Shown piece by piece: positions 196 through 13,035 of a stretch of 64,000 nt of DNA. The translations under genes and the position numbers were made by a program. The stretch comes from Burkholderiaceae bacterium (lineage in GTDB: Bacteria; Pseudomonadota; Gammaproteobacteria; Burkholderiales; Burkholderiaceae_E), in assembly GCA_023954015.1 (NCBI GenBank), contig JAMLIS010000007.1, positions 1-64,000 of the forward strand. The letters run 5' to 3'. The notes below the pieces were generated by a model. It was not told the DNA's origin, did no database searches, and saw only the letters and a list, made by a program, of their open reading frames with translations. The number at the start of each line of letters is the position of its first letter. The first letter of the stretch is position 1.

Positions 196-287
196 TGGCG
201 GAAGAGGCGGGAGTCGAACTCGCCAGAGACGTCTAACGTCTCCTTCCGGTTTTGAAGACCGGTCGTCCCACCGGGGACTTCTCTTCC
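196..287 (-). tRNA. selC: tRNA-Sec (anticodon UCA)
   Basis: Selenocysteine tRNA, read on the minus strand from 287 to 196. It has the UCA anticodon (bases 255-253) in a 7-nt loop closed by a perfect 5-bp stem CCGGT/ACCGG. The acceptor stem GGAAGAG/CTCTTCC carries discriminator G and an encoded CCA end. The long variable arm (7-bp stem GAGACGT/ACGTCTC) is typical of tRNA-Sec and was decisive against a UGA suppressor of another class. The length is 92 nt, slightly shorter than the E. coli tRNA. One A-C mismatch is seen in the T stem. It lies 68 bases downstream of a Bug-protein gene and may be co-transcribed with the selenoprotein operon. SelA charges it and SelB delivers it; both are encoded nearby. 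Confidence 0.95.
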
Positions 288-355: not shown

Positions 356-1330
356 TCAGTCGATCGAGATGTTCTGCTCGCGGATGATCGACTCCCACTT
401 CCTGGTTTCGGCCTCGAGCAGCGTGCCGAATGCCTCCGGCCCCTGCACTTTCGTGAACATCCCGAGGGCCTCGACGCGTGCCTGTTCTTCGGAACCAGCG
501 AGAACTTCGGCCACGGCCCGGTATGCTCCATCGATCGCCGCCTTCGGCGCCGCGGCAGGAGCAATGAGACCCAGGAACGTGCTTACGTCGAAGCCCGGAT
601 AGGTTTCAGCGACCGTCGGATACTTCTCCGCGCCTTTCACGCGTTCGCGCGAGAGCACTGCGATGATCTTCATGCGCTTCGCGTTCACGTGCGGCAACAC
701 CGAGAGCAACGGGTCGATGAGTAGCGGAACCTGTCCGCCGATGACATCGGTATGCGCCGGCGCGCTTCCCTTGTACGCAATGTGCGTCATGCGGATATCC
801 GCCACGCGGTTGAGCAGTTCGCCCGCGAGATGTGAGGTGCCGCCGGCACCCGGAGTCGCGAAATTCATCTCGCCGGGATTTTTCCGGGCATGGGCTACCA
901 GTTCAGGCAATGTATCGTAAGGTGCAGCGACGTTCGCCGCCAGGACAAGCGGAACCTCGACGACTTGCGTGACCGGAGCGAGATCCCTGACCTGATAGGG
1001 GACGGACCTTCGCAGCATTGGATTGATCACGAAAGCGCTGTTCACGATACCTAGCGTGAGCCCATCGCTGGGCGCCTGCGCCACATGCGCGACGCCGATC
1101 ATCGTGCCCGCGCCAGGCTTGTAATCGACGAGCACGGGCTGCCCCCATCGCTCCGTGAGCCGTTGCGCCACGATTCGAACGAGAGTATCGGTCGGCCCAC
1201 CCGGCGGATACGGCACGATGAACTTCATCGTCCCCTGCGGGAATTTCCCTGCGTCCGCCCTGGTACGACCCGTCGCAATAAGTACAGACAGGGAGGCACC
1301 GGCCTGTACCATTCTTCTGCGCGAGAACAT
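356..1330 (-). CDS. Bug/TctC-type periplasmic substrate-binding protein
   Basis: A 324-residue tripartite-tricarboxylate-type solute receptor (Bug family). It has an N-terminal export signal with an RRR start and a hydrophobic stretch to about residue 25. Family motifs follow: FIVPYPPGGPTDT, YKPGAGTMIG, and the central TPGAGGTSHLAGELL and YKGSAPAHTDVIGGQVP. It would bind a small carboxylate in the periplasm. The ATG is preceded by a clear AGGAGGGGA site. It sits 27 bases downstream of the selenoprotein gene, so it is very likely the last protein gene of that operon and may supply its substrate. No TctA/TctB membrane partner is adjacent, which is common for orphan Bug receptors. The ligand is unknown. 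Confidence 0.9.
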   Translation of the reverse strand: MFSRRRMVQAGASLSVLIATGRTRADAGKFPQGTMKFIVPYPPGGPTDTLVRIVAQRLTERWGQPVLVDYKPGAGTMIGVAHVAQAPSDGLTLGIVNSAFVINPMLRRSVPYQVRDLAPVTQVVEVPLVLAANVAAPYDTLPELVAHARKNPGEMNFATPGAGGTSHLAGELLNRVADIRMTHIAYKGSAPAHTDVIGGQVPLLIDPLLSVLPHVNAKRMKIIAVLSRERVKGAEKYPTVAETYPGFDVSTFLGLIAPAAAPKAAIDGAYRAVAEVLAGSEEQARVEALGMFTKVQGPEAFGTLLEAETRKWESIIREQNISID

Positions 1331-1357: not shown

Positions 1358-2992
1358 TTACCGCCACTTGTCGATCGACTGCGTCGCCTGCCGATACAAG
1401 CCGGCGACCATTTTGAAGGCCCCCTGCGTCTCACCTCCCATCACGACGATCGAGATATCCGACGGCCGCCACATCCTGATCAATTCGTCGGGACGCGCCT
1501 TCAACATCGAGGCCCAAGGCTCGACGCCAGCCACCGCATGCGGATGAATCAGGGTCTGCACCCACTGGTTGTCCCAGTACTCGCGCGCCGTGAGCAGCGA
1601 GTTGGCGGAGCACCATTCGAGCAGCTTCTGCTTCGTGTCGAAGCCAAGATCGACGAAGCCACGCGCCGTGATCGGGTCGAGGACCAGGATGGGTGGACAG
1701 TACGGTTCACACGCGGCAAAGCAACGACGGAACTTGTCTTCCCAAGTATCGCGCGGTCCGTACCCGGCCTGCGTGTACCAACCGCCGAGATAGACCGTCA
1801 CCGCGCTCTCGTGGAGATCGAAACCGTGCTGCGCGTGCAGCGGTTCCCACGGGCTGCGCTCCTCGTTTTCGGCCCATGTCGCCGAGTAGTTGTAGGCATT
1901 GCCCAGCGACCCCATGTAGGTGTCACCGATCACGGAGCCGCCCTGCAGATTCTGGGAAAGAATCCCGTGTGCTCGGCCGATCGTCGCATTGGCATGGTTG
2001 TACGGGCCCATCGCGCCCATGCCGCTGTTCATCCCGATCTCGTTGCGAATGGGCCCGTTGACGATCGACGGCGCAGCCCACGAGGTCGTGCTGCTGTGCC
2101 TCGCAGTCATGCCGCTCGCGGCGAGCGCGAGGATCACCGGAAGGTATTCCGGGCGCGCACCCGCCATCACGGCGTTCACCGCGACTTTCTCCACGGTGAA
2201 CTCCCAGAACTCCCGGTATCGCGTGGGGCGCAGGCGGCCCACGATCTCGTCGGGCGCGCGGCTCGTACCCTTAAGCATCGCCTCGACGCGTTCCTCGGTG
2301 GGCAGAACGATCGGCAGGCAATCGGTCCAGTGGTTCTGCAGGAACAGCTGATGCAGATTCCCCTCGGTGTCGGGCTCGAGCAGGCGCGGCTTGGAACGCT
2401 CGAACGAGAGACCGCTCAGATCCTGGTCATCCAGCGGCGCCGTGAGTCCTTCGAGCACCTCCCTGACGAAGGGCCGCCTGCTGACCGGATCGTCGCCGTA
2501 GACGTACGCGCGAAGCTGCTCGGGCGAGCGGCCGACGATCGGCTGCGGAACGAACGCCTGGCGCAGCGTGGGCATTCCGCCGGCGCGTGCGACCGATTTC
2601 GCCAGACGCGCGAAGACGTGCGTGTGGATTGCGACCGTGGGAACGCCCGCGGCTTCCAGAGACATCGCGAGCCCGGCGACCGTCGGGCTGCACGTGCTTC
2701 AGAGGCCTACGCCGAGGATCGCAGCGTTGCCGTCGGCCTCGATGCGCGCGCGCATGGCCGGATCGTCTTCCCAGCTCTCGCGGGGCTTGATGATCTGGGT
2801 TCGCACCGTCGGCAAATGCTCAGCGAACCACTGCTGCAACTGCAGGAGGAACTGCTCGGAATTGTCGAACAGGCAGTCGACCAGGTAGACGAGCTTTCCG
2901 CTCAGGCCTTCTTCGTGCCGCGGCGCAAGCCGGCTGCCGGTCACGCTGGGGGCATAGCCCTCGGGATCGTACACACGCACCTTTCGTGTCAT
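1358..2992 (-). CDS. Selenoprotein, UGSC/GrdB-like Sec domain fused to a large C-terminal domain (in-frame UGA = Sec98)
   Basis: A 544-residue selenoprotein whose frame is interrupted only by TGA at 2701-2699. The 97 codons before the TGA (from ATG 2992, strong GGGAGGG site) and the codons after it are in one frame. Reading TGA as Sec gives ILGVGL-U-S-T-C-SPTVAG, a UxxC redox motif at Sec98/Cys101 inside a domain (about 1-170) resembling the UGSC family of (seleno)proteins, distantly like glycine reductase GrdB. After the motif, LEAAGVPTVAIHTHVF continues the family pattern. Residues about 195-544 form a second domain (CLPIVLPTEERV, ATIGRAHGIL, ENEERSPWEPLHAQHGF) that I recognise as a conserved partner of such proteins but cannot name. 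A SECIS hairpin follows the TGA. The internal ATG at 2665 has no ribosome site. The gene lies 15 bases after a thioredoxin-reductase-like gene, a plausible electron donor. The substrate is unknown. Confidence 0.88.
2666..2692 (-). promoter_or_regulatory. Bacterial SECIS element
   Basis: A hairpin in the coding RNA immediately 3' of the UGA codon. Counting from the base after UGA, AGCCCG (+10 to +15) pairs perfectly with CGGGCT (+24 to +29). The stem can be extended below by C9-G31, G8-C32 and U7-G33 with one bulged C. The loop ACGGUCGC can close further with a C-G pair to expose a GGUC tetraloop at +18 to +21. In E. coli fdhF the GGUC of the SECIS apical loop, whose G and U contact SelB, lies at +19 to +22, so both motif and spacing agree. 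It should tether SelB-GTP-Sec-tRNA to decode the UGA at 2701-2699. Confidence 0.85.
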
Positions 2993-3007
2993 TGCCTTTC
3001 CCTCCCT

Positions 3008-3937
3008 TCAGTTCCAGATACCGTTCCGCAGATAGCGGTCGGCCATGATTGCCGCGTTGACGCCATCGCCGGCTGCGCCCGCAGCCTGTCCGGATGCGCC
3101 CGCGCGCACGATGCCCGCTGCGAACAGCCCACGACGAGCGGTACGAAGGTATGCGTCGGTACGGATGTGCCCGCGATCGTCGCACTCTACTAACTCACGC
3201 ACCACCCCGGCGTTCGGTTCTACACCGATGTAGACGAAGACGCCCGATGCTTCGAGCTCGGATCCAGGGCCGCCGCCCGTCGGCTGCATGCGAACGCCTG
3301 TGACTGCACCGTCGCCGAGAATCTCCGTCACGACGACGCCGTAGCGATGCTCGATACGGGGATCGGCGAGGACGCGTTCCCGATAGCTCGCCTGCCCGCC
3401 CAGCGCCGACCCACGATGCAACATCGTCACCTTCGACGCATGCGACGACAGATGCAGCGACTCCTGCATGGCGGAATCTCCCGAGCCGACGACAACGACG
3501 GCGCACCCGCGCAGCAGCGGCGCGTCGCAGCTCGCGCAGTGACTGACCCCCTTGCCGTCGAGCGCCGCTTCTCCCGGCACGCCCAGTGCACGCAACCGGG
3601 CGCCGGTCGCCACGACGAGCGCACGCGCCGTGTAGGTCTCGCTGCCAGCATGAATGCACCAGCCGTCGCCATGGGTCTCGATCCGCTCGAGCTCCGCCGA
3701 TGCGAACCCGGCGCCGGCGGCCTCGGCCTGCTCCTGCATTATCGGGCACAGGTCGTAGCCAGGAACGCCTTCCGGAAAGCCGGGAAGTCCCTCGATGTGT
3801 TCGATACTGAGCAGTAACCCGCCAGGCACGTTTCCGCCTAGCACGAGCGTTCGACGACCGAAACGTGCTGCGTACAAACCGGCGCTGAGTCCGGCGATGC
3901 CGCCGCCGGCAACTATCACGTCGAATGCGTTGTTCAA
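3008..3937 (-). CDS. Thioredoxin-reductase-like FAD/NAD(P) oxidoreductase
   Basis: A 309-residue flavoprotein of the thioredoxin reductase family. It shows an N-terminal FAD site VAGGGIAGLSAG, a redox motif HCASCDAPLL (the usual CxxC-D with A in place of G after D), the NADP site VVVGSGDSAMQESLHL, and a C-terminal FAD-binding AAGI...GDGVNAA segment. I chose the TTG start at 3937, behind GGGGGACCC, because the protein then begins NNAFDVIVAGGG and has the normal family length; the frame upstream lacks homology. It is the first gene of the operon, 15 bases before the selenoprotein. By analogy with grd operons, which also carry a TrxB, it probably keeps the Sec98/Cys101 pair reduced using NAD(P)H. 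Confidence 0.88.
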   Translation of the reverse strand: MNNAFDVIVAGGGIAGLSAGLYAARFGRRTLVLGGNVPGGLLLSIEHIEGLPGFPEGVPGYDLCPIMQEQAEAAGAGFASAELERIETHGDGWCIHAGSETYTARALVVATGARLRALGVPGEAALDGKGVSHCASCDAPLLRGCAVVVVGSGDSAMQESLHLSSHASKVTMLHRGSALGGQASYRERVLADPRIEHRYGVVVTEILGDGAVTGVRMQPTGGGPGSELEASGVFVYIGVEPNAGVVRELVECDDRGHIRTDAYLRTARRGLFAAGIVRAGASGQAAGAAGDGVNAAIMADRYLRNGIWN

Positions 3938-4052: not shown

Positions 4053-4883
4053 ATGCGCTCCAGCCCTCCGAGACGCCGTTCCGCCAATTGGCGTGTCGCT
4101 TCCGCCGCCCGACCGCGCTCGGCGCTCGAACGCGGCTTCGCGGTCCTGCATTGTTTCGAGCCCGTGTCCCGTCCGCTTGCCAACGGCGAACTATCTCGGC
4201 TTACCGGTATTCCGAAGCCCACCGTCACGCGCGTCGTCGCGTCGTTGGTCGGCCTTGGCTACCTGAAGCCAGCGGCCGAAGCCGATCACTACGAGTTGTC
4301 CGCGCGCAGCGTACGGCTCGCGCGCGCTTTCCTCGACAGCGTGGACCTACGCGCAATCGCGCGTCCGCATCTGGCCGGACTCGCCGAGTTCGCCGGCGCC
4401 TCTTCATTCCTCGCCGTTCGCGATGCCACGGACATGGTGCTGGTCGAAACGATGCGTTCACGATCGGCGCCGGTATCACTGCGCTCCGATGTCGGCACGC
4501 GCCTGTCGCTTGCCACCTCCGCCCTCGGACGCGCATGGCTCGCTGCGCTCGGCGAACGAGCGCTCGCACAAGTGCTCGACGAACTCGCCGCCGTTCATGG
4601 CAACAAATGGCCGAAACTCCGACCCGCTGTCCTGCGCGCCATTACCGTGACGCGGAACGAAGGTTGCTGCGTATCGATCGGCGACTGGCATCCGGAAATC
4701 AATACGGCGGCGGTTCCGCTGCGCAGCGCCGAAGGCGAACTGCTCGCGATCAACTGCGGCGGCCCTTCATACTTGCTGTCGGAGCGTCGGTTGCGCGAAG
4801 AGATCATGCCTCGGCTCGTCGAGACGGCCCGAACGATAGCCGGCGAGATCGGCGGCAGCGCGGCAAGTGACGCGATGCGCTAA
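4053..4883 (+). CDS. IclR-family transcriptional regulator
   Basis: A 276-residue regulator. Residues about 26-80 form the winged helix-turn-helix (SALERGFAVLHCF, ELSRLTGIPKPTVTRVVASL, GYLKP) and about 85-265 the effector-binding domain. IclR proteins usually sense small organic acids and control neighbouring catabolic genes. It is transcribed divergently from the selenoprotein operon and is followed at 64 bases by a Bug protein gene and then by selA-selB, so it probably controls both directions through the repeat at 3945-3982. The basic N-terminal extension of about 25 residues may be real or may mean a later start; no better start codon is visible. Confidence 0.9.
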   Translation: MRSSPPRRRSANWRVASAARPRSALERGFAVLHCFEPVSRPLANGELSRLTGIPKPTVTRVVASLVGLGYLKPAAEADHYELSARSVRLARAFLDSVDLRAIARPHLAGLAEFAGASSFLAVRDATDMVLVETMRSRSAPVSLRSDVGTRLSLATSALGRAWLAALGERALAQVLDELAAVHGNKWPKLRPAVLRAITVTRNEGCCVSIGDWHPEINTAAVPLRSAEGELLAINCGGPSYLLSERRLREEIMPRLVETARTIAGEIGGSAASDAMR

Positions 4884-4947: not shown

Positions 4948-5925
4948 ATGCATCGTCGAGGAGTTCTTCTCATGCTGGCGGCATCCGGCGCGTGGTCGCT
5001 CGCCGGCGTATCCGCCCTCGCCGCCGACCAAGCCTGGCCGAATCGGCCCGTTCACCTGATCGTCCCGTTTCCGCCCGGCGGCCCCACCGACACGTTTGCG
5101 CGATTGATCGCCGGCAAGCTGCAGCAGAAATGGGGACAACCGGTGATCGTCGACTACAAGCCGGGCGCGGGAACGGTGATCGGCACCGACCACGTCGCGA
5201 AATCGGCACCGGACGGCTACACGCTCGGCGTGGTCATCGGCGCGCACACGATCAATCCGAGCCTCCGCTCGAACCTGCCGTACGACACTATCCAGGACCT
5301 CGCAGGGGTCTCGCACGTCGTCGTCTCTCATTACGGGCTGTTCGCGCACCCGTCGTTCGGACCCAGCACGATTCCGGAGCTGATCGAATACGCGAAGAAG
5401 AATCCCGGCAAGCTCGACTACGCAACGCCGGGCGCCGGGACCGGCACGCATCTGGCCGGTGAACTGCTCAACAGCATGGCCGGTATCAACATGGTGCACG
5501 TGCCGTACAAAGGCAGCGCGGCGGCACAGCAGGACGTCATCGGCGGGCGCGTTCCGCTGCTGTTCGACATTCTCTATTCGTCGATGCCGTTCGTGCGGGA
5601 CGGCCGGCTGAAAGTGCTCGGGGTAGCGAGCCCGAAGCGCGTGCCGAGCAGCCCCGACCTACCGGCCATCGCCGAGACGGTGCCCGGATTCAGCGGCGTC
5701 AGCATCATGGGAATCATCGCTCCTTCGGCCACGCCGAAGGATCTGCTGCACAGGATCAGCGCTGATATCGCCCAGGTCGTCCGCGAGCCCGATGTCATCG
5801 AGCGAATGGCTTCTCTCGGCATGGAGCCGGTCGGCTCGACGCCGGAGGAATACGATGCGCTGATCCGGCGCGAAATCGACAAATGGGGCCGGATCATCCG
5901 CGCTGCGAACATCCGGCTCGAGTGA
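4948..5925 (+). CDS. Bug/TctC-type periplasmic substrate-binding protein
   Basis: A 325-residue solute receptor with a cleavable signal (MHRRGVLLMLAASGAW... ending near VSALAADQ) and the Bug motifs LIVPFPPGGPTDTFAR, YKPGAGTVIG, TPGAGTGTHLAGELL and PYKGSAAAQQDVIGG. The ATG at 4948 follows ACGGAG by seven bases; upstream codons lack family similarity. It is closely related in motif wording to the Bug protein at 356-1330, so the two genes flanking the Sec locus probably arose by duplication and bind similar carboxylates. selA begins 12 bases after its stop, which makes the Sec synthesis genes part of a substrate-uptake operon. Confidence 0.9.
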   Translation: MHRRGVLLMLAASGAWSLAGVSALAADQAWPNRPVHLIVPFPPGGPTDTFARLIAGKLQQKWGQPVIVDYKPGAGTVIGTDHVAKSAPDGYTLGVVIGAHTINPSLRSNLPYDTIQDLAGVSHVVVSHYGLFAHPSFGPSTIPELIEYAKKNPGKLDYATPGAGTGTHLAGELLNSMAGINMVHVPYKGSAAAQQDVIGGRVPLLFDILYSSMPFVRDGRLKVLGVASPKRVPSSPDLPAIAETVPGFSGVSIMGIIAPSATPKDLLHRISADIAQVVREPDVIERMASLGMEPVGSTPEEYDALIRREIDKWGRIIRAANIRLE

Positions 5926-5937
5926 TACGCGGCGAGC

Positions 5938-7404
5938 ATGCGCGAGGAGGCGGCTTTCGGGGACATCCCTTCGGTCGACCGTTTGCTTCGCAGCGAGGCG
6001 GCGGCCGACCTGATCGAGCGACACGGACGCGCCGCGGTCACTGCGGCGTTCCGCTCCACCCTCTCGATCCTGCGTGCAGCGTGCGCGCAGACGCTTGTGC
6101 CGCATGGCGCAACCGGAACCGACCGGCCCGCCGCATCGGCGCACGGCGATGAGCTGGCCCTGTCCTCGATCGTCGAGCAGGCAACGCGGCAGCTCGATGA
6201 ACGGCTCCAGCCCTCGCCGAGAGCGGTCTTCAACCTCACAGGTACGATCCTGCACACGAATCTCGGGCGGGCGGCGCTTCCCGACGAGGCGATCGAGGCC
6301 ATCACGCGCGTCGCCCGCGGAGCAAGCGATCTCGAATTCGATCTGACGACGGGCGGGCGCGGCGATCGCGATGCGCACGTCGAATCGCTTCTGTGCGAGC
6401 TGACGGGCGCCGAAGCGGCCACCGTGGTCAATAACAACGCCGCCGCAGTACTGCTCGTGTTGCGCAGCCTCGCGAACCGGCGCGAGGTGCCGACCTCGCG
6501 CGGCGAACTCATCGAGATCGGCGACTCCTTCCGGCTGCCAGACATCGTGCGCGCCGCCGGCTGCCGGCTGTGCGAGGTCGGCACGACGAACCGCACGCAC
6601 CTGCGCGATTTCGCCGAAGTGATCGGCCCACGCACCGGCGCCGTGCTGAAGGCGCACGCTAGCAACTACGAAATCGTCGGCTTCACGTCGTCCGTGGACG
6701 AAGCCGCACTCGCCGCGCTGTGCCGCGAGCACGCAGTGCCTTTCGTCATCGACCTGGGCAGCGGCTCGCTCGTCGACTTGCGCACATACGACCTGCCATA
6801 CGAGCCGACGCCCACCGAAGCATTGGCGCGCGGTGCCGACATCGTCACGTTCAGCGGCGACAAGCTGCTTGGAGGTCCACAAGCCGGCATCATCGTCGGG
6901 CGCGCCGATCTCGTCGCGAAGATCCGGCGCAACCCGCTCAAGCGCGCCCTGCGCGTCGACAAACTGACCGTCGCAGCGCTCGCCGCCGTGCTGCGCCTGT
7001 ACTCCGATCCGCAGCGGCTCGTTCGGCGCCTGCCGACGCTGCGAATGCTCCAGCGGACTGCGGCCGACATCGCCGCGGCGGCGCAACGCCTGCGGCCTGC
7101 ATGCGCGTCGGCACTCGACGGAGTCGCGACCGTCGACGCGATCGCCTGTGAGAGCCAGGTGGGCAGCGGAGCGCAACCGTTGCGCGCCCTCGCGAGCGCC
7201 GGCCTGGCGATCCGGCCGGAGGGCGCGAAGCAGCGCGGTACAGCGCTGAAGGACCTTGCCGCGGCGTTTCGCCGGCTTCCGCTGCCAGTCGTCGGCCGCA
7301 TCCGTGACGGAGCCTTGATCTTCGATCTGCGCGCCCTCGAAGACGAAGCCGGGTTCGTCTCGCAGTTGCCGTTGCTATGGACCGGTACCGTGCGCTGCCC
7401 ATGA
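5938..7404 (+). CDS. selA: L-seryl-tRNA(Sec) selenium transferase
   Basis: A 488-residue PLP enzyme that converts Ser-tRNA(Sec) to Sec-tRNA(Sec) using selenophosphate. An N-terminal tRNA-binding region (about 1-90) precedes the fold-type I core beginning [14 protein letters not shown]. Further motifs are [24 protein letters not shown] and [11 protein letters not shown]. The PLP lysine is Lys309 in [14 protein letters not shown]. Length and motifs match bacterial SelA. It starts 12 bases after a Bug gene and overlaps selB by four bases (ATGA), so the three are one transcript. The start-site Shine-Dalgarno is weak, suggesting coupling to upstream translation. With selC and selB it completes the Sec machinery apart from selD. 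Confidence 0.96.
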
Positions 7405-9356
7405 TCGTCGCTACCGCGGGTCACGTCGATCACGGCAAAACCTCGCTCATACGCGCGCTGACCTCGGTCGACACCGACCGGCTGCCCGAGGAAAGAAAGC
7501 GTGGAATGACCATCGATCTCGGCTTCGCCTATCTGCCGGTGGAAGCCGCCCCCGGACAGCCGCCGGTCGACTCGATCGGATTCATCGATGTGCCCGGACA
7601 CGAGCGTTTCGTGCGCAACCTGCTGTGCGGACTGTCGGGGATCGACCTTGCGGTGCTCGTGATCGCCGCCGACGACGGACCGATGCCGCAGACGGCCGAG
7701 CACCTGTCGATCCTCGATCTGCTCGAAGTGCCCGGCGGCGTTGTCGTGATGACACGGATCGACCGCGTGAGCGACGCGCGGATCGCGCAGGTGCGCGCGC
7801 TGATCGAAACGATGTGCGCGGGTACCGCGCTGTCGGGCGTTCCGATCTTTCCGGTGTCCTGCTTGGACGGCCGGGGAATCGATGCGCTGAAGGAGCATTT
7901 GCTGAGCGCCGCACGCTCAAGCGCACTCCGCTCGCGGAGGGGAACTTTTCGGCTTGCTATCGATCGCGTATTCAATGTCGCCGGCACCGGGCTCATCGTC
8001 ACTGGAACGGCCGCTTCGGGATCCGTTCAAGTCGGAAATTCCGTACGCGCGCCCGACGGCACCTCGCTTCGCGTACGTTCGCTGCATGTTAACAACCGGC
8101 CCGCGGAATCGGGCCAGGCAGGACAGCGCTGCGCGCTGAACCTCTCGGGACCGGGCGACGTCGCCGCGTCGATCGCACGGGGCGACTGGATCGTCGCCCC
8201 GCAGGCACCCTTGCCCACGGCGAGATGGGACGCTCGGGTGAGAATTCTTGGCAGCGTACCGAAGCCCGTCGCGAACGGGACACCGGTGTCCGTGCACCTG
8301 GGGACTGCGCACGCGAACGCGCGCATCTCCTGGCTGGAAGCCAGGACGGTCGATACCGGAGCCAGCGCGTTCGCGCAACTCATGCTCGAGCACCCGATCG
8401 GCGCCGCTCATGGCGACCGGTTCATCGTGCGCGATCCGTCGTCGCGTCGCACGATCGGCGGTGGCCAGGTGATCGACATCTTCGCGCCCGCGCGGGGGCG
8501 CACGAAGCCCGAGCGCCTCGCGTACCTGTCCGCGATGGCCGTGCACAACGACGCGACCGCACTCGCGCGCCTGCTCGATGTATGCGTGGGCGGGCTGCCG
8601 CTGCGGCAGTTCCGTGCGAATCGCAATCTCGCCGAAGACGAAGCGCAGGAGCTGTTCGCGCGAGTCCAGATGGAACGCATCGCCACCAGCGACGGCCCCA
8701 TAGGCTTCTCGCCCGCACGGTGGTCGAGCGTCGAACGACAGGCGATCGAGAGCGTCGCGAAGTGGCACCTTGACTCGCCTTGTACGATCGGCATGCCGGA
8801 AGACCGCATCCTGGATAGCCATGCGCCGCGAGTCTCGCGACCGCTCGCCATCGGGATAGCGCGCGAGCTCGCGTTGCGCGGGCGGCTCGTCAGGACCAGC
8901 GGTACCGTCCGGCTCCCCACCCACCGACCGACGATCGATCCAGCCCAGGAAGCGATGTGGCGCAAACTCGCCCCCCACATCGAACGACGACCGCTACGCC
9001 CGCCTTCGCTGCACGAGCTGGCCGCATTGCTGGACGAGCCGACCGAGTACGTAGAATCCGCGCTCGAACACTCGGCTCGCCTCGGGCGCATCGTTCGCGT
9101 GTCCTCCAGGCACTACTACGTGCCGTCAGCGCTGCGCCGACTGGGCGAAGTCGTATGCGCAGTTGCGCAGGACGATGCGAACGGAGAAGTGAGCGCGATG
9201 GCATTCCGCGACCGCTCCGGAATCGGACGCAACGTTTCGATCGAAGTGCTCGAATTCTTCGACCGCAAACGCTTCACCCGGCGCTACGGGAACACGCGTC
9301 GATTGGTGCGCACGCTCGAGGACGTGCTCGGCGAGGACGAGCCCCGACGGATGTAG
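7401..9356 (+). CDS. selB: Selenocysteine-specific elongation factor SelB
   Basis: A 651-residue translation factor that carries Sec-tRNA(Sec) to UGA codons marked by a SECIS hairpin. The GTPase domain shows G1 GHVDHGKT (residues 7-14), [10 protein letters not shown]3 DVPGHERF (63-70) and G4 TRID (118-121). EF-Tu-like beta-barrel domains follow. The C-terminal third contains winged-helix repeats ([18 protein letters not shown]) that bind SECIS RNA. I chose the ATG at 7401 overlapping the selA stop because it gives the canonical start [14 protein letters not shown]. The selenoprotein on the opposite strand is the only client seen in the window. Confidence 0.96.
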
Positions 9357-9526: not shown

Positions 9527-10177
9527 TCAAATAGCTCGACTTTCAGACCGAACACCAAGTGCGTCTTCCACTTCAACCGAGGAGTGCACTCGCGCAAAAA
9601 AACCATCGAGTACGTCGAGCGCATTCTCATGACGCGCAAGCGTCGAGCCGCCCGAGCAATCCGACAGGAGGACAACCGAATAATCACGCATGAACGCGTC
9701 ACGGACCGTCGTATCGACGCACACATCCGTCGTCGCACCACACGCGACGATCGTGTCGATCCGTGCCGCTCGAAGCATGGCATCGAGTGCGGTATCGACG
9801 AACGCCGAATATCTGAACTTGTCGATAACGAAGTCGCCCGCCTCGGGCTGCACAGCGAACCAGTCGGCCGACTCAGATGAGCGTACGCGCCTCAGCGCCG
9901 TACGTGCATAGTGAGACCCTAGCGCCCGGGACAGTGGCCATGAAGGGAAAACTGTACGTACGAAGACCACGAGATCGAAAGCGCGCCGATTCCTCGAGAG
10001 AAAGCTCTCGATCCGAGCGCCTACCCCGGCGAAGTGCGACGTGTCGTGGCCGAGCGCATCGATGACACCCCCCGGCGCGCAATAGTCTCGTTGCATGTCG
10101 ATCACCACGAGGGCGATTCGGCCGCTCAGTGCTGCGACGAGTCCGTCTTTGACGCCTTCTTCGATCACGCCGGTCAT
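9527..10177 (-). CDS. Isochorismatase-family cysteine hydrolase
   Basis: A 216-residue amidohydrolase of the isochorismatase-like (nicotinamidase/N-carbamoyl hydrolase) family. The catalytic triad is visible as Asp27 (VVIDMQRDY), Lys120 (VIDKFRYSAF) and Cys153 (CGATTDVCVDTT); the cis-peptide segment before the Cys is normal. I chose the ATG at 10177 because it overlaps the stop of the upstream TRAP gene as ATGA; an in-frame ATG three codons earlier is possible. It is the last gene of a TRAP transporter operon, so it probably hydrolyses an amide or carbamoyl group on the imported compound or its product. The exact substrate cannot be told. Confidence 0.88.
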   Translation of the reverse strand: MTGVIEEGVKDGLVAALSGRIALVVIDMQRDYCAPGGVIDALGHDTSHFAGVGARIESFLSRNRRAFDLVVFVRTVFPSWPLSRALGSHYARTALRRVRSSESADWFAVQPEAGDFVIDKFRYSAFVDTALDAMLRAARIDTIVACGATTDVCVDTTVRDAFMRDYSVVLLSDCSGGSTLARHENALDVLDGFFARVHSSVEVEDALGVRSESRAI

Positions 10178-11475
10178 TCGAACCATGAAACAAAGAAAAG
10201 AACGGAATCCTTCCAGGCGATCATGACTGCAATCAATGCAACTATGACGCCGACGAACAGCCAGGCTGCCTTGAACAACTCACCGAGACTGATGAACGGC
10301 AGCATGCGCTTGACCACGAAGATGTTCACCCCGACCGGCGGAGTGATCATCCCGGCCTGGCCGAGAACGACGATCAGGACCCCGAACCAGATCAGGTCGT
10401 ATCCCATGTTGACGATGATCGGCGCGAAGATGGGCACGGTGATGATGATGACCGGCAGGATCTCCATCACCATCCCCGCGATTAGATAGCCGGCGGAGAT
10501 CAGCATGAGCACGGCGACATGCGGCAGGTCGGACGACATGACCGTCTCTGCCAGCGTGAACGGAATGCGCGTCACGGTGAGGAACGTACTGAGAACGGCT
10601 GATCCGGCAATGATGAACACGACCACGGCCGAGGTGACCACCGTCTCGGTGAACACTTTCGACAGCGACTCCCATGTGAAAGACCGACGCGCAACGCCGA
10701 ACAGGAATGCACCCGTTGCACCGACTGCACCCGCCTCGTTCGGCGTGAAGACGCCGCCGAACATGCCGCCGATCACGACGATCAGCAGTACCGCCGGTTC
10801 GATGAGTCCAGTCAGGGACCGGAACCGGACCGACCACGACGCCGGCGGAGCGAATTCCGTGTCCAGGACGCGGCGCCGTTCGACGAGCACGACCATCACG
10901 GCGAATCCCATCGCCATGATGATTCCAGGCGCGATTCCCGCGATGAACAGGCGTCCGATGCTTTCGTTGACCAGAATGCCGTAGATGATGAACGTCACGC
11001 TCGGCGGAATCAGGATGCCGAGTGTGCCGCTCGCCGCAACCGTCGCGCCGGCAAAGCCCATCGGGTACTTCGCGCGCTGCATTTCGGGCAAGGCGAACGC
11101 ACCAATGGTTGCAGCCGTTGCAATAGCCGAGCCGGAGATCGCGGCGAAACCCGCACAGGCAGCCACGGTTGCGACGGCGAGCCCGCCCGGCATATGACCG
11201 AGCCACGCACGTGCGGCCGAGTAGAGTCGCTCTCCGCCACCACCGGAAAACATCAGTTGGCCCATGAGAATGAAGAGCGGCAGCACTGCAAGATCGTATT
11301 GCCCGATCTTGGCGTAGATCGTCGGGGCGAGGCTCTCGAAGCCGACCGCCGTTCCGACCCACAGGCTGACGCCGGCCATGCCGACGACCGCCATGGCCGC
11401 GGCAACGTTGGTGCCAAGGAAAATCAAGCAGAGTGCGACCAAGACGCCGACGAGACCGGCCATCTCAGGGCTCAT
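10174..11475 (-). CDS. dctM: TRAP transporter large permease subunit DctM
   Basis: A 433-residue polytopic membrane protein of the TRAP-T DctM family with about twelve hydrophobic segments. Typical motifs include PLFILMGQLMFSGG near residue 70, ATIGAFALPEMQRAKYP, GTLGILIPPSVTFIIYG and the C-terminal GQAGMITPPVGVNIFVVKR. It forms the Na+-dependent transport channel with DctQ and takes ligand from DctP. Its start overlaps the dctQ stop by 11 bases, and its stop overlaps the isochorismatase start. These features support a single operon dctP-dctQ-dctM-hydrolase on the minus strand. Confidence 0.95.
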   Translation of the reverse strand: MSPEMAGLVGVLVALCLIFLGTNVAAAMAVVGMAGVSLWVGTAVGFESLAPTIYAKIGQYDLAVLPLFILMGQLMFSGGGGERLYSAARAWLGHMPGGLAVATVAACAGFAAISGSAIATAATIGAFALPEMQRAKYPMGFAGATVAASGTLGILIPPSVTFIIYGILVNESIGRLFIAGIAPGIIMAMGFAVMVVLVERRRVLDTEFAPPASWSVRFRSLTGLIEPAVLLIVVIGGMFGGVFTPNEAGAVGATGAFLFGVARRSFTWESLSKVFTETVVTSAVVVFIIAGSAVLSTFLTVTRIPFTLAETVMSSDLPHVAVLMLISAGYLIAGMVMEILPVIIITVPIFAPIIVNMGYDLIWFGVLIVVLGQAGMITPPVGVNIFVVKRMLPFISLGELFKAAWLFVGVIVALIAVMIAWKDSVLFFVSWFE

Positions 11476-11953
11476 GGACGCTTTGTCCCTTGACGAGTTC
11501 GAGGAATTGCACAGCCGCGACGGCCGCTACGACGATCATGCCGATCGATACGGCCGCGTAGACCACCCATTGCGGCATGTGCAGGATGTCCGTGACCTGT
11601 CCGGACCTCTTTATCGCTTCGGTGGCGAGAATGAACTGTGCCGCGAGCACGAAGAGAAAGACCACTTCGACACCGAGCGTGACACCACGCAAGCGCCGCT
11701 TGGCGCTCCCCGTGAAGTGCTCCGTGACCGTTTCGACAAAGATGAACGCCCCGGTGCGCTGTACGTGGGGCAGCGCACCGGCTACTCCGATGGCCCCGAG
11801 CATGCCGACGAGCTCGTACGTGCCCGGCACCGGGGCTCTGAACAGCATGCGCAGGACGACGTCTGCGACAGTCAACAGCGTCATCGCGGCGATCGCAAGC
11901 TTCGCCACGAAGAGACAGGTACTCGAAAGGCGGAACGCCGTGCGAGTCAGCAT
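11465..11953 (-). CDS. dctQ: TRAP transporter small permease subunit DctQ
   Basis: A 162-residue membrane protein with four predicted hydrophobic helices (LFVAKLAIAAMTLLTVADVVLR, YELVGMLGAIGVAGALP, VEVVFLFVLAAQFIL and WVVYAAVSIGMIVVAAVAA). The WVVYAAVSIG-type final helix and R-x(n)-P-VPGTYELVG region fit DctQ. The ATG at 11953 was chosen because the frame upstream has no family features and normal DctQ length is about 160-180. It lies 29 bases after dctP and overlaps dctM. Confidence 0.9.
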   Translation of the reverse strand: MLTRTAFRLSSTCLFVAKLAIAAMTLLTVADVVLRMLFRAPVPGTYELVGMLGAIGVAGALPHVQRTGAFIFVETVTEHFTGSAKRRLRGVTLGVEVVFLFVLAAQFILATEAIKRSGQVTDILHMPQWVVYAAVSIGMIVVAAVAAVQFLELVKGQSVHEP

Positions 11954-11982
11954 GACCGGAATGGGAGGTCTTGTTCTTAGGC

Positions 11983-13035
11983 TTACTTGACCGAGTTCGG
12001 GTCCAGCGGTGGGAATTCCGGGGCGTACTTGCGGATCGCCTCCTTCTTGGCATCGAGGATCGCGCGACCCGGCAAACCAGCCGCCTCCATGCGCTTCACG
12101 TAGTCGGCTTCCAGCGGCTTCAAGACGGCATCCCGCCAACGTGCCATCTCGGACGGCTCCAGACGAATGAACTCGTGCTGGCGCTCACGTGCGTAGGCGA
12201 GCCCCTCCATCTCGATCTTGTCCCACAACTCGCCCGCCTTGGTCGCGTACTCCGCTGAGACCGACTCGAGGGCCGTCTTTGCATCCGCAGGAAGCGAATT
12301 CCACTTGTCTTTGTTCATGACGACAGCGAACGTCGTTACATAACCCACGTCGGTCGATACGGTGGTGAACTTCGTGACCTCGGCAAATCGGTAGTACCGG
12401 TGCGTATTAAAAGTGCCGTCGGTGCCGTCGACCACGCCACGCTTCAGCGGGTCGTAGGCCTGCGTGATCGGCATGCTGACCGGTGATGCGCCCAGGGCAG
12501 TCAAAATCCGCGCGGAGAGTCCGGTCGAGCGGATACGCATGCCCTTGAGGTCCTCGAGCTTCCGAACCGGCTTGGACGCGGTCAGGATGGACCCGGGTGG
12601 GTGCGCATGTACGTACAGCACATGAACCTGCGAGAGCTCTTTCGGTGTGAACTTCCGGTAGATCTCGTTGGCCACTCGCGTAGTTAGCCGCCCGCTGATT
12701 GGATAACCGGGCAGGTCGACCGACTCCATTACCGGAAAGCGGCCGGGGGTGTAAGCCAGAACCGCCTGGCACATATCAGACAGCCCCTGCAGAACGCCCT
12801 CGAAACACTGCGCGGGCGTCGTCAACGTGCCACTGGGAAAGACCTGCACCTCCACGTTTCCACCCGTCCGCGCCTGGACGTCCTGCGCGAACTGCGTGGT
12901 GAGCTGCCCAAATGGGTATGCAGCGGGAAATAGATCACTGAGTCGCAGCACCACCGTTTCGGCTGCTGCGGCGCCACTCATTGCGAGCAAGGCGGCAAAG
13001 GCGAATGAGCGTGCGCGGGTCGTGAAAGTCGACAT
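11983..13035 (-). CDS. dctP: TRAP transporter substrate-binding protein DctP
   Basis: A 350-residue periplasmic receptor. A signal peptide (basic start, then FAFAALLAMSGAAAAE) is followed by the DctP fold. Recognisable elements are VLRLSDLFPAAYPFGQ, EVQVFPSGTLTTPAQCFEGVLQG, KLEDLKGMRIRSTG (the conserved DLKGxKIR motif whose Arg usually binds the ligand carboxylate), and MPITQAYDPLKRGVVDGTDG. It delivers an organic acid to DctQM. It is the first TRAP gene and lies 19 bases after a CocE-type hydrolase gene, so all five genes may be co-transcribed from 14758. Confidence 0.93.
   Translation of the reverse strand: MSTFTTRARSFAFAALLAMSGAAAAETVVLRLSDLFPAAYPFGQLTTQFAQDVQARTGGNVEVQVFPSGTLTTPAQCFEGVLQGLSDMCQAVLAYTPGRFPVMESVDLPGYPISGRLTTRVANEIYRKFTPKELSQVHVLYVHAHPPGSILTASKPVRKLEDLKGMRIRSTGLSARILTALGASPVSMPITQAYDPLKRGVVDGTDGTFNTHRYYRFAEVTKFTTVSTDVGYVTTFAVVMNKDKWNSLPADAKTALESVSAEYATKAGELWDKIEMEGLAYARERQHEFIRLEPSEMARWRDAVLKPLEADYVKRMEAAGLPGRAILDAKKEAIRKYAPEFPPLDPNSVK

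Follow-up and report, generated by a model that had tools for sequence, protein, structure and literature searches.

According to the passages of the published sources available to us, the UGSC proteins form a known selenoprotein family (PMC2398784, PMC5029168, PMC9312934, PMC13188914) and they have appeared on selenoprotein lists since 2008 (PMC2398784). The metagenome paper of that year expected a thioredoxin-like fold and a redox role for these proteins, and the same source reports UGSC fused to a domain that was named Unknown_1 (PMC2398784). A row for UGSC selenoproteins is contained in a table of 2016 with the entries 26 and 33, which presumably are the numbers of organisms and genes. UGSC is placed by a 2026 review among the families with functions that are largely uncharacterized (PMC13188914), and none of the titles and abstract openings in the literature consulted names a function for UGSC proteins. 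Another described system that can be compared with the locus is the fluoroacetate reductase FarB/FarE, which is GrdB-like, and the accessible part of that report describes genomes with several protein B complexes, each specific for a substrate (PMC10838667).

Here we describe a gene found in a stretch of 64,000 nucleotides, which is referred to as the window. Its product is a variant of UGSC that has a USTC motif and two domains and is encoded in an operon with a reductase gene. With good confidence, we consider this to be one gene in which UGA is read as selenocysteine (Sec), and its product to be a two-domain predicted reductase that would be re-reduced by the flavoprotein encoded upstream. 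The selenoprotein reading given in the original prediction is supported overall.

Gene organization and the in-frame UGA

The gene was observed to occupy a single frame of the reverse strand from 2992 to 1358, where the TGA at 2701-2699 is the sole interruption (Table 1). The frames 2992-2702 and 2698-1358 had been described as parts of the same frame, and this is indeed the case: reading the TGA as Sec gives a protein of 544 aa, in which Sec98 is located within GLUSTC and forms the U-S-T-C motif that had been proposed. A ribosome-binding site (GGGAGGG) is located 7 nt upstream of the ATG at 2992. It is the only such site found for the two candidate start codons, since the ATG at 2665, which sits directly behind the hairpin described below, has no ribosome-binding site upstream, as previously noted. 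The insertion of Sec98 at this UGA is regarded as likely, judging from the sequence. Reading of the UGA as Trp, or an otherwise altered code, was considered and rejected. TGA was observed to terminate six of the nine genes checked at the locus, selA included, and therefore the genetic code is not reassigned.

Table 1. Features of the predicted selenoprotein locus and its surroundings (positions in the window)
Feature	Position	Strand	Evidence
selC, tRNA-Sec	196..287	-	ARAGORN tRNA-SeC, anticodon tca; Rfam RF01852 (200-287)
Gene for a TctC/Bug-type solute receptor, following the selenoprotein gene	356..1330	-	PF03401, E 4.8e-49
Selenoprotein gene, 544 aa, UGSC domain and domain of ~350 residues, TAA stop	1358..2992	-	
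C-terminal domain, without credible Pfam match, predicted substrate-binding part	1361..2410	-	inferred
UGSC domain, residues 7-163, predicted flavodoxin-like alpha/beta fold	2504..2974	-	
SECIS-like stem-loop, apical GGUC at 2678-2681	2670..2689	-	covariation in 25 genes
In-frame UGA, predicted Sec98, with Cys101 three residues later (USTC)	2699..2701	-	TGA conservation, distant Cys
Ribosome-binding site GGGAGGG of the selenoprotein gene	3000..3006	-	sequence reading
Thioredoxin-reductase-like flavoprotein, CASC, putative TTG start	3008..3937	-	TIGR01292, 268 bits (cut-off 343)
IclR-type regulator	4053..4883	+	PF01614, PF09339
Second TctC solute receptor	4948..5925	+	PF03401, E 2.4e-70
selA	5938..7404	+	TIGR00474, 545 bits (cut-off 268)
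selB	7401..9356	+	TIGR00475, 375 bits (cut-off 242)

Selenocysteine machinery

The genes selC, selA and selB, which had been placed within 7 kb of the selenoprotein gene, were all identified there (Table 1). The selC gene scores 62 bits against Rfam RF01852 (gathering 47), and the ATG of selB overlaps the stop of selA as ATGA. With selD, which was found elsewhere in the genome with 420 bits (G000:C12:16820-17746), the set of selA, selB, selC and selD is present in this genome. The selD gene lies inside an open frame of 783 codons and may be fused to another domain.

The search of the genome for selenoproteins covered UGSC, SelD and formate dehydrogenase. Twelve matches were obtained for formate dehydrogenase and none of these was above the cut-off. 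A TGA near one such match was considered as a second Sec site and rejected because it is the stop of the preceding gene. As for a phage origin, no match was found in the phage collection.

The presence of UGSC was observed to be strongly associated with that of selA. The order examined is likely Burkholderiales, judging from names among the hits. Among 300 of its genomes, 34 have UGSC and 87 have selA above the cut-off, where selA is present in 32 of the 34 UGSC genomes and in 55 of the 266 others (Fisher p 1.8e-17; three UGSC and seven selA genomes under the curated cut-offs were left out of this count). The UGSC genomes that have no selA are G103 and G144 (84% complete). Within the genus, selA was found in six and UGSC in three of 18 genomes and the trait is therefore patchy. 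At some loci of the relatives the machinery directly adjoins the Sec gene: selA and selB follow it in L033 and selB follows it in L037, and selA is one gene away from it in L039. Two tandem Sec genes, both with a TGA, were also noticed in L033 (8229-11626), where they are located between a flavoprotein gene and selA-selB.

Domain architecture

The Pfam family UGSC (PF24696) matches residues 7-163 with an E-value of 1.3e-21 and 78 bits (cut-off 25). Family similarity had been said to continue on both sides of the TGA, and both this match and the alignment of the relatives span the site. The window protein and its 30 relatives all match PF24696 at E<=1 (31 of 31). The NCBIfam equivalog NF041046 (UGSC_fam) gives 61.9 bits, which is below its cut-off of 125, and the window protein has USTC at the position of the literal U-G-S-C motif. 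Among the 68 TGA genes obtained from a motif scan, UGSC was found in 38, USTC in 21 and other motifs in nine. The predicted strands of the N-terminal domain appear to be flavodoxin-like instead of thioredoxin-like.

The C-terminal domain of about 350 residues was found in 37 of the 38 wider UGSC regions and in none of the 20 controls. No convincing fold match was obtained for it, and the best E-value against Pfam among 38 members was 0.014. The GrdB-like kinship that had been proposed for the protein found no support, as PF07355 matches none of the 31 proteins at E<=1. Two of the 31 full-length proteins match PF09338, the glycine reductase B-subunit family, with a best E-value of 0.057, and this family was not among the Pfam families matched by the 38 C-terminal domains. 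A search with PF07355 in 299 genomes gave matches in five, none of them usable as a GrdB profile.

Flavoprotein, TctC receptors and other neighbours

The stop of the flavoprotein gene is located 15 nt upstream of the selenoprotein ATG; its product contains a CxxC motif and scores under the TIGR01292 cut-off (Table 1). A CxxC reductase gene was found to adjoin the Sec gene in 10 of the 22 relatives fetched from public genomes, as well as in L003 and L004, and it also adjoins the Cys gene of Neorhizobium. Of the 11 gaps measured between the reductase stop and the ATG of the Sec gene, 10 lie between -4 and 51 nt; in L003 no nearby stop was seen in the frame that was followed. No reductase was found in the fetched flanks of 12 of the 22 close loci, and it was near one of the 38 UGSC regions of G005 and G055, a count in which diverged forms could be missed. 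The reductase is therefore not a family-wide partner.

TctC receptor genes were observed to be frequent near UGSC genes. Of the 38 UGSC regions, taken from G005 (18 of its 19 places) and G055 (20 regions; 26 places), 30 have one at a distance of up to about 6 kb, compared with six of the 20 control regions, all from G005 (p 4.8e-4). The corresponding densities are 57 genes in 459 kb of UGSC regions and six genes in 250 kb of controls. Within G005 only, the contrast is weaker, with 13 of 18 UGSC regions against six of the 20 controls (p 0.022). A scan of 98 of the 138 candidate neighbours did not reveal a common enzyme neighbour of the UGSC regions, the top Pfam family occurring in four of the 98, so that these mixed neighbours point to no particular substrate. 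In the window, an isochorismatase-type hydrolase is encoded next to selB in the region 9527-13035 with opposite transcription. Other frames of this region, named by eye, resemble a TRAP transporter set.

We predict that the gene encodes a Sec-dependent enzyme which reduces a carboxylate after its import and would be re-reduced by its own flavoprotein. The alternative is a Sec protein with general thiol or oxidant chemistry, such as the reduction of disulfides or peroxides, beside which TctC genes occur through their abundance in the genome. The second domain that is missing from all controls, the enrichment of TctC that is also seen within one genome, the dozens of diverged UGSC copies per genome and the N-terminal domain predicted as flavodoxin-like instead of thioredoxin-like all argue against such general chemistry, and we consider it unlikely, even though the thioredoxin-like fold and redox role expected in the 2008 paper (PMC2398784), the mixed enzymes of the neighbourhood and the TctC genes of the control regions are in line with it.

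Conservation of the predicted Sec codon

TGA was observed at the homologous codon in all 24 relatives, which have 57-72% identity to the window protein. Twenty-two of them were fetched from public genomes via six peptide patterns, none covering residue 98 (one of these relatives, L051, ends at residue 478), and the remaining two, L003 and L004, belong to the same order and were obtained by a genome search with the whole protein. The record titles of the TGA relatives include Alpha-, Beta- and Gammaproteobacteria, Acidobacteria and Chloroflexi. Residues 98 and 101 do not vary among the 31 aligned rows (the window and 30 relatives), all of which were picked for TGA.

Both flanks of the TGA evolve as coding sequence. 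In comparison with 18 relatives, the codon positions 1, 2 and 3 differ in 0.26, 0.22 and 0.47 of the codons before the TGA and in 0.23, 0.18 and 0.49 of those behind residue 109. Of the three parts compared, the eleven codons between the UGA and the ATG at 2665 showed the highest conservation. This conservation, the TGA kept in every relative and the second ATG that has no ribosome site are difficult to reconcile with a UGA that is a true stop between two separate proteins of 97 aa and 435 aa. Such a division is what the list of open reading frames gives, and the database entries listed and one plasmid annotation start or stop there, as described below. The Cys relatives also speak against it, each being a single chain, and we regard two proteins as very improbable.

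The existence of Cys homologues aligned at residue 98 had been suggested as a check of the selenoprotein, and these were found. The site has the Cys codon TGC on Neorhizobium galegae plasmids (53% identity) and in a copy from G103 (48%). A total of 7151 relatives of the Neorhizobium protein fall within the E-value limit, and the best 120 of these all have Cys at the site (CSTC in 117 and CSSC in three) in one chain of 540-569 aa. Relatives with neither Cys nor Sec at position 98, which had been named as evidence against the prediction, were seen in two distant proteins, from Vibrio europaeus (25% identity) and Sporomusa (23%). The redox residue is therefore not universal in the wider group. 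These two genes, L127 (Vibrio europaeus) and L128 (Sporomusa termitida), are carried on plasmids in the neighbourhood of genes for aconitase X and DUF126; they encode full-length distant relatives that have neither Cys nor Sec at the two redox positions, and they may represent a branch of the fused protein that has no redox role.

A tree built from 31 Sec and 17 Cys proteins requires at least three changes of the Sec/Cys label, and a Chloroflexota Sec protein groups beside the main Cys clade (98/93). Sec and Cys therefore appear to have exchanged during evolution, with the caution that two of the Cys rows (L005 and L123) are long branches. The Cys-type protein L005 of G103, which has GHCSTC at the site, was also noticed to contain an in-frame TGA in its C-terminal domain where the aligned relatives have Trp. 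No selA was found in this genome, and the TGA may be due to a mutation, an assembly error or another cause.

SECIS-like hairpin

The 60 bases from the UGA onward align gap-free in 25 genes and contain a stem of 8 bp (positions 13-20/25-32) with the apical tetraloop GGUC, where 92% of the cells are paired. The covariation of the hairpin is 0.118 compared with 0.058 in shuffles, and none of the 500 shuffles was as high. Six doubly changed cells were observed in the stem, for example at the wobble positions of Pro and Val codons, and this count of doubly changed pairs was reached by 16 of 500 shuffles. Further pair types were not above the shuffles (5 against a mean of 5.4, with 462 of 500 as high). 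The hairpin behind the UGA is SECIS-like and covaries across the relatives. The same GGUC loop is found at a nearly equal distance in the SECIS element of E. coli fdhF.

In the wider family as well, a stem-loop follows closely on the UGA: of 65 distinct genes, 59 form a stem of 5 bp or more whose loop is located 19-24 nt away from the UGA. The same arrangement was found in 160 of 2080 windows elsewhere in those genes and in 928 of 3250 synonymous recodings. The copy in the window is weak by itself. An A-C mismatch opens one pair, the fold has a z of -1.23 with 22 of 200 shuffles equally stable, and the loop is located at 18, one base off, which places this gene among the six of 65 that miss the loop position. 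A Cys or Trp codon altered by nonsense mutation or by a sequencing error, to which a single genome assembly and a TGA one base from TGC, TGT and TGG might point, is largely refuted by the same TGA in the 24 relatives from other assemblies and is further opposed by the covarying hairpin and the coding-type evolution on both sides, so that its probability is negligible.

Truncated database entries and copy number

The best 120 of the 7992 database hits of the joined protein, which include the window's own entry, were all found to be 405-444 aa long; the motif that precedes the Sec site is seen in none of them and all are without the Sec region. Six of the listed entries were read fully, where five begin at the codon equivalent to Met110 and one begins further in. 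This indicates a systematic database error among the best hits and agrees with the original prediction, in which automatic annotation was expected to yield broken proteins. On plasmid p2-T1 of Acidovorax sp. T1 (L124), which was typed as conjugative and IncP, the annotation closes the gene precisely at the UGA, after 96 aa. Transposase genes and a TctC gene are found at a distance of a few genes from this UGSC gene with TGA. Ramlibacter sp. AW1 has a truncated entry (P0031) in addition to a full-length Cys entry (P0233).

The number of UGSC copies can be high. Genome G293 has 58 UGSC matches, 57 of them above the cut-off and some of them fragments. An in-frame TGA is present in 54 of the 58, and 51 of those 54 have no other stop. 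G055, G140 and G005 have 26, 24 and 19 matches respectively, nearly all with an in-frame TGA. In the part of the 2026 review available to us, the largest selenoprotein totals over all families are 57 for the Olavius Delta 1 endosymbiont and 63 for a Methylomirabilota assembly (PMC13188914). The 54 TGA-bearing UGSC matches of G293 are close to these bacterial totals.

Proposed mechanism

The mechanism proposed here builds on direct observations of the frame, the TGA conservation, the hairpin covariation, the gene neighbours and the partner domain. SelA, SelB and tRNA-Sec, encoded in the same 9 kb, would insert Sec98 together with SelD, encoded elsewhere, and the hairpin at 2670-2689 would direct this insertion. 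Electrons are predicted to pass from NAD(P)H to the flavin and the CASC disulfide of the flavoprotein, then to the Sec98-Cys101 pair and finally to the substrate. The C-terminal domain would hold the substrate, which is likely a small carboxylate that is predicted to be taken up via the TctC receptors. Sec98 may then attack a polar bond beside the carboxyl group, in the way that is assumed for the Sec residues of glycine, D-proline and fluoroacetate reductases. The locus forms a compact island in which the Sec machinery is encoded together with a single UGSC enzyme and a reductase that is likely dedicated to it, and this offers a handle on the function of the family.

More tentatively, UGSC and its C-terminal partner could represent a third class of Sec substrate reductases beside glycine reductase and D-proline reductase. 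The class would be modular, with each copy tuned to another carboxylate from its own TctC receptor and with about 50 copies in one genome of a likely betaproteobacterial order, and it would mostly have escaped notice, since gene finders break the proteins at the UGA. We regard this wider reading as possible and somewhat short of probable. If it is true, the copies of that one genome would come close to the published maximum for the whole selenoprotein set of a bacterium, and the expansion would be located outside the anaerobic groups named as richest in selenoproteins.

Comparison with known systems

The UGSC family (PF24696, NF041046) and the window protein share the domain across the Sec site and a UxxC pair in which Sec or Cys comes first. 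The window protein differs in its USTC motif, in its length of 544 aa with a fused C-terminal domain and in its operon with a CxxC flavoprotein. The UGSC-Unknown_1 fusion of 2008 also has two domains; in the passages available the likeness is by name only, and Unknown_1 may or may not equal the C-terminal domain described here. In the portions of the sources consulted we found no account of the two-domain form with USTC, of the operon with the flavoprotein, of the Sec island, of the hairpin position shared across the family or of the copy number, and these are apparently undescribed.

GrdB/PrdB (PF07355) with pyruvoyl GrdE/PrdA (PF09338) would work in a similar way, having a UxxC pair and a partner protein or domain. 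Glycine reductase and D-proline reductase receive their electrons from a thioredoxin-reductase-type flavoprotein, which would be a further likeness to the system predicted here. They differ in that none of the 31 proteins matches PF07355, PF09338 reaches an E-value of 0.057 in two of the 31, and the window protein is one fused chain. The neighbour at 3008-3937 shares with TrxB (TIGR01292) the Pyr_redox domain and the CASC redox motif, and it is unlike TrxB in scoring 268 bits, below the cut-off of 343, and in being linked to a Sec gene.

The fluoroacetate reductase FarB/FarE of Cloacibacillus resembles the proposal made here in that its Sec protein is proposed to attack the polar C-X bond in a small carboxylate (PMC10838667). 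According to the accessible part of the report, FarB/FarE differs from the window system in that it is of the GrdB type, comes from an anaerobe, has a radical SAM gene and an antiporter gene in its operon and lies outside the UGSC family (PMC10838667).
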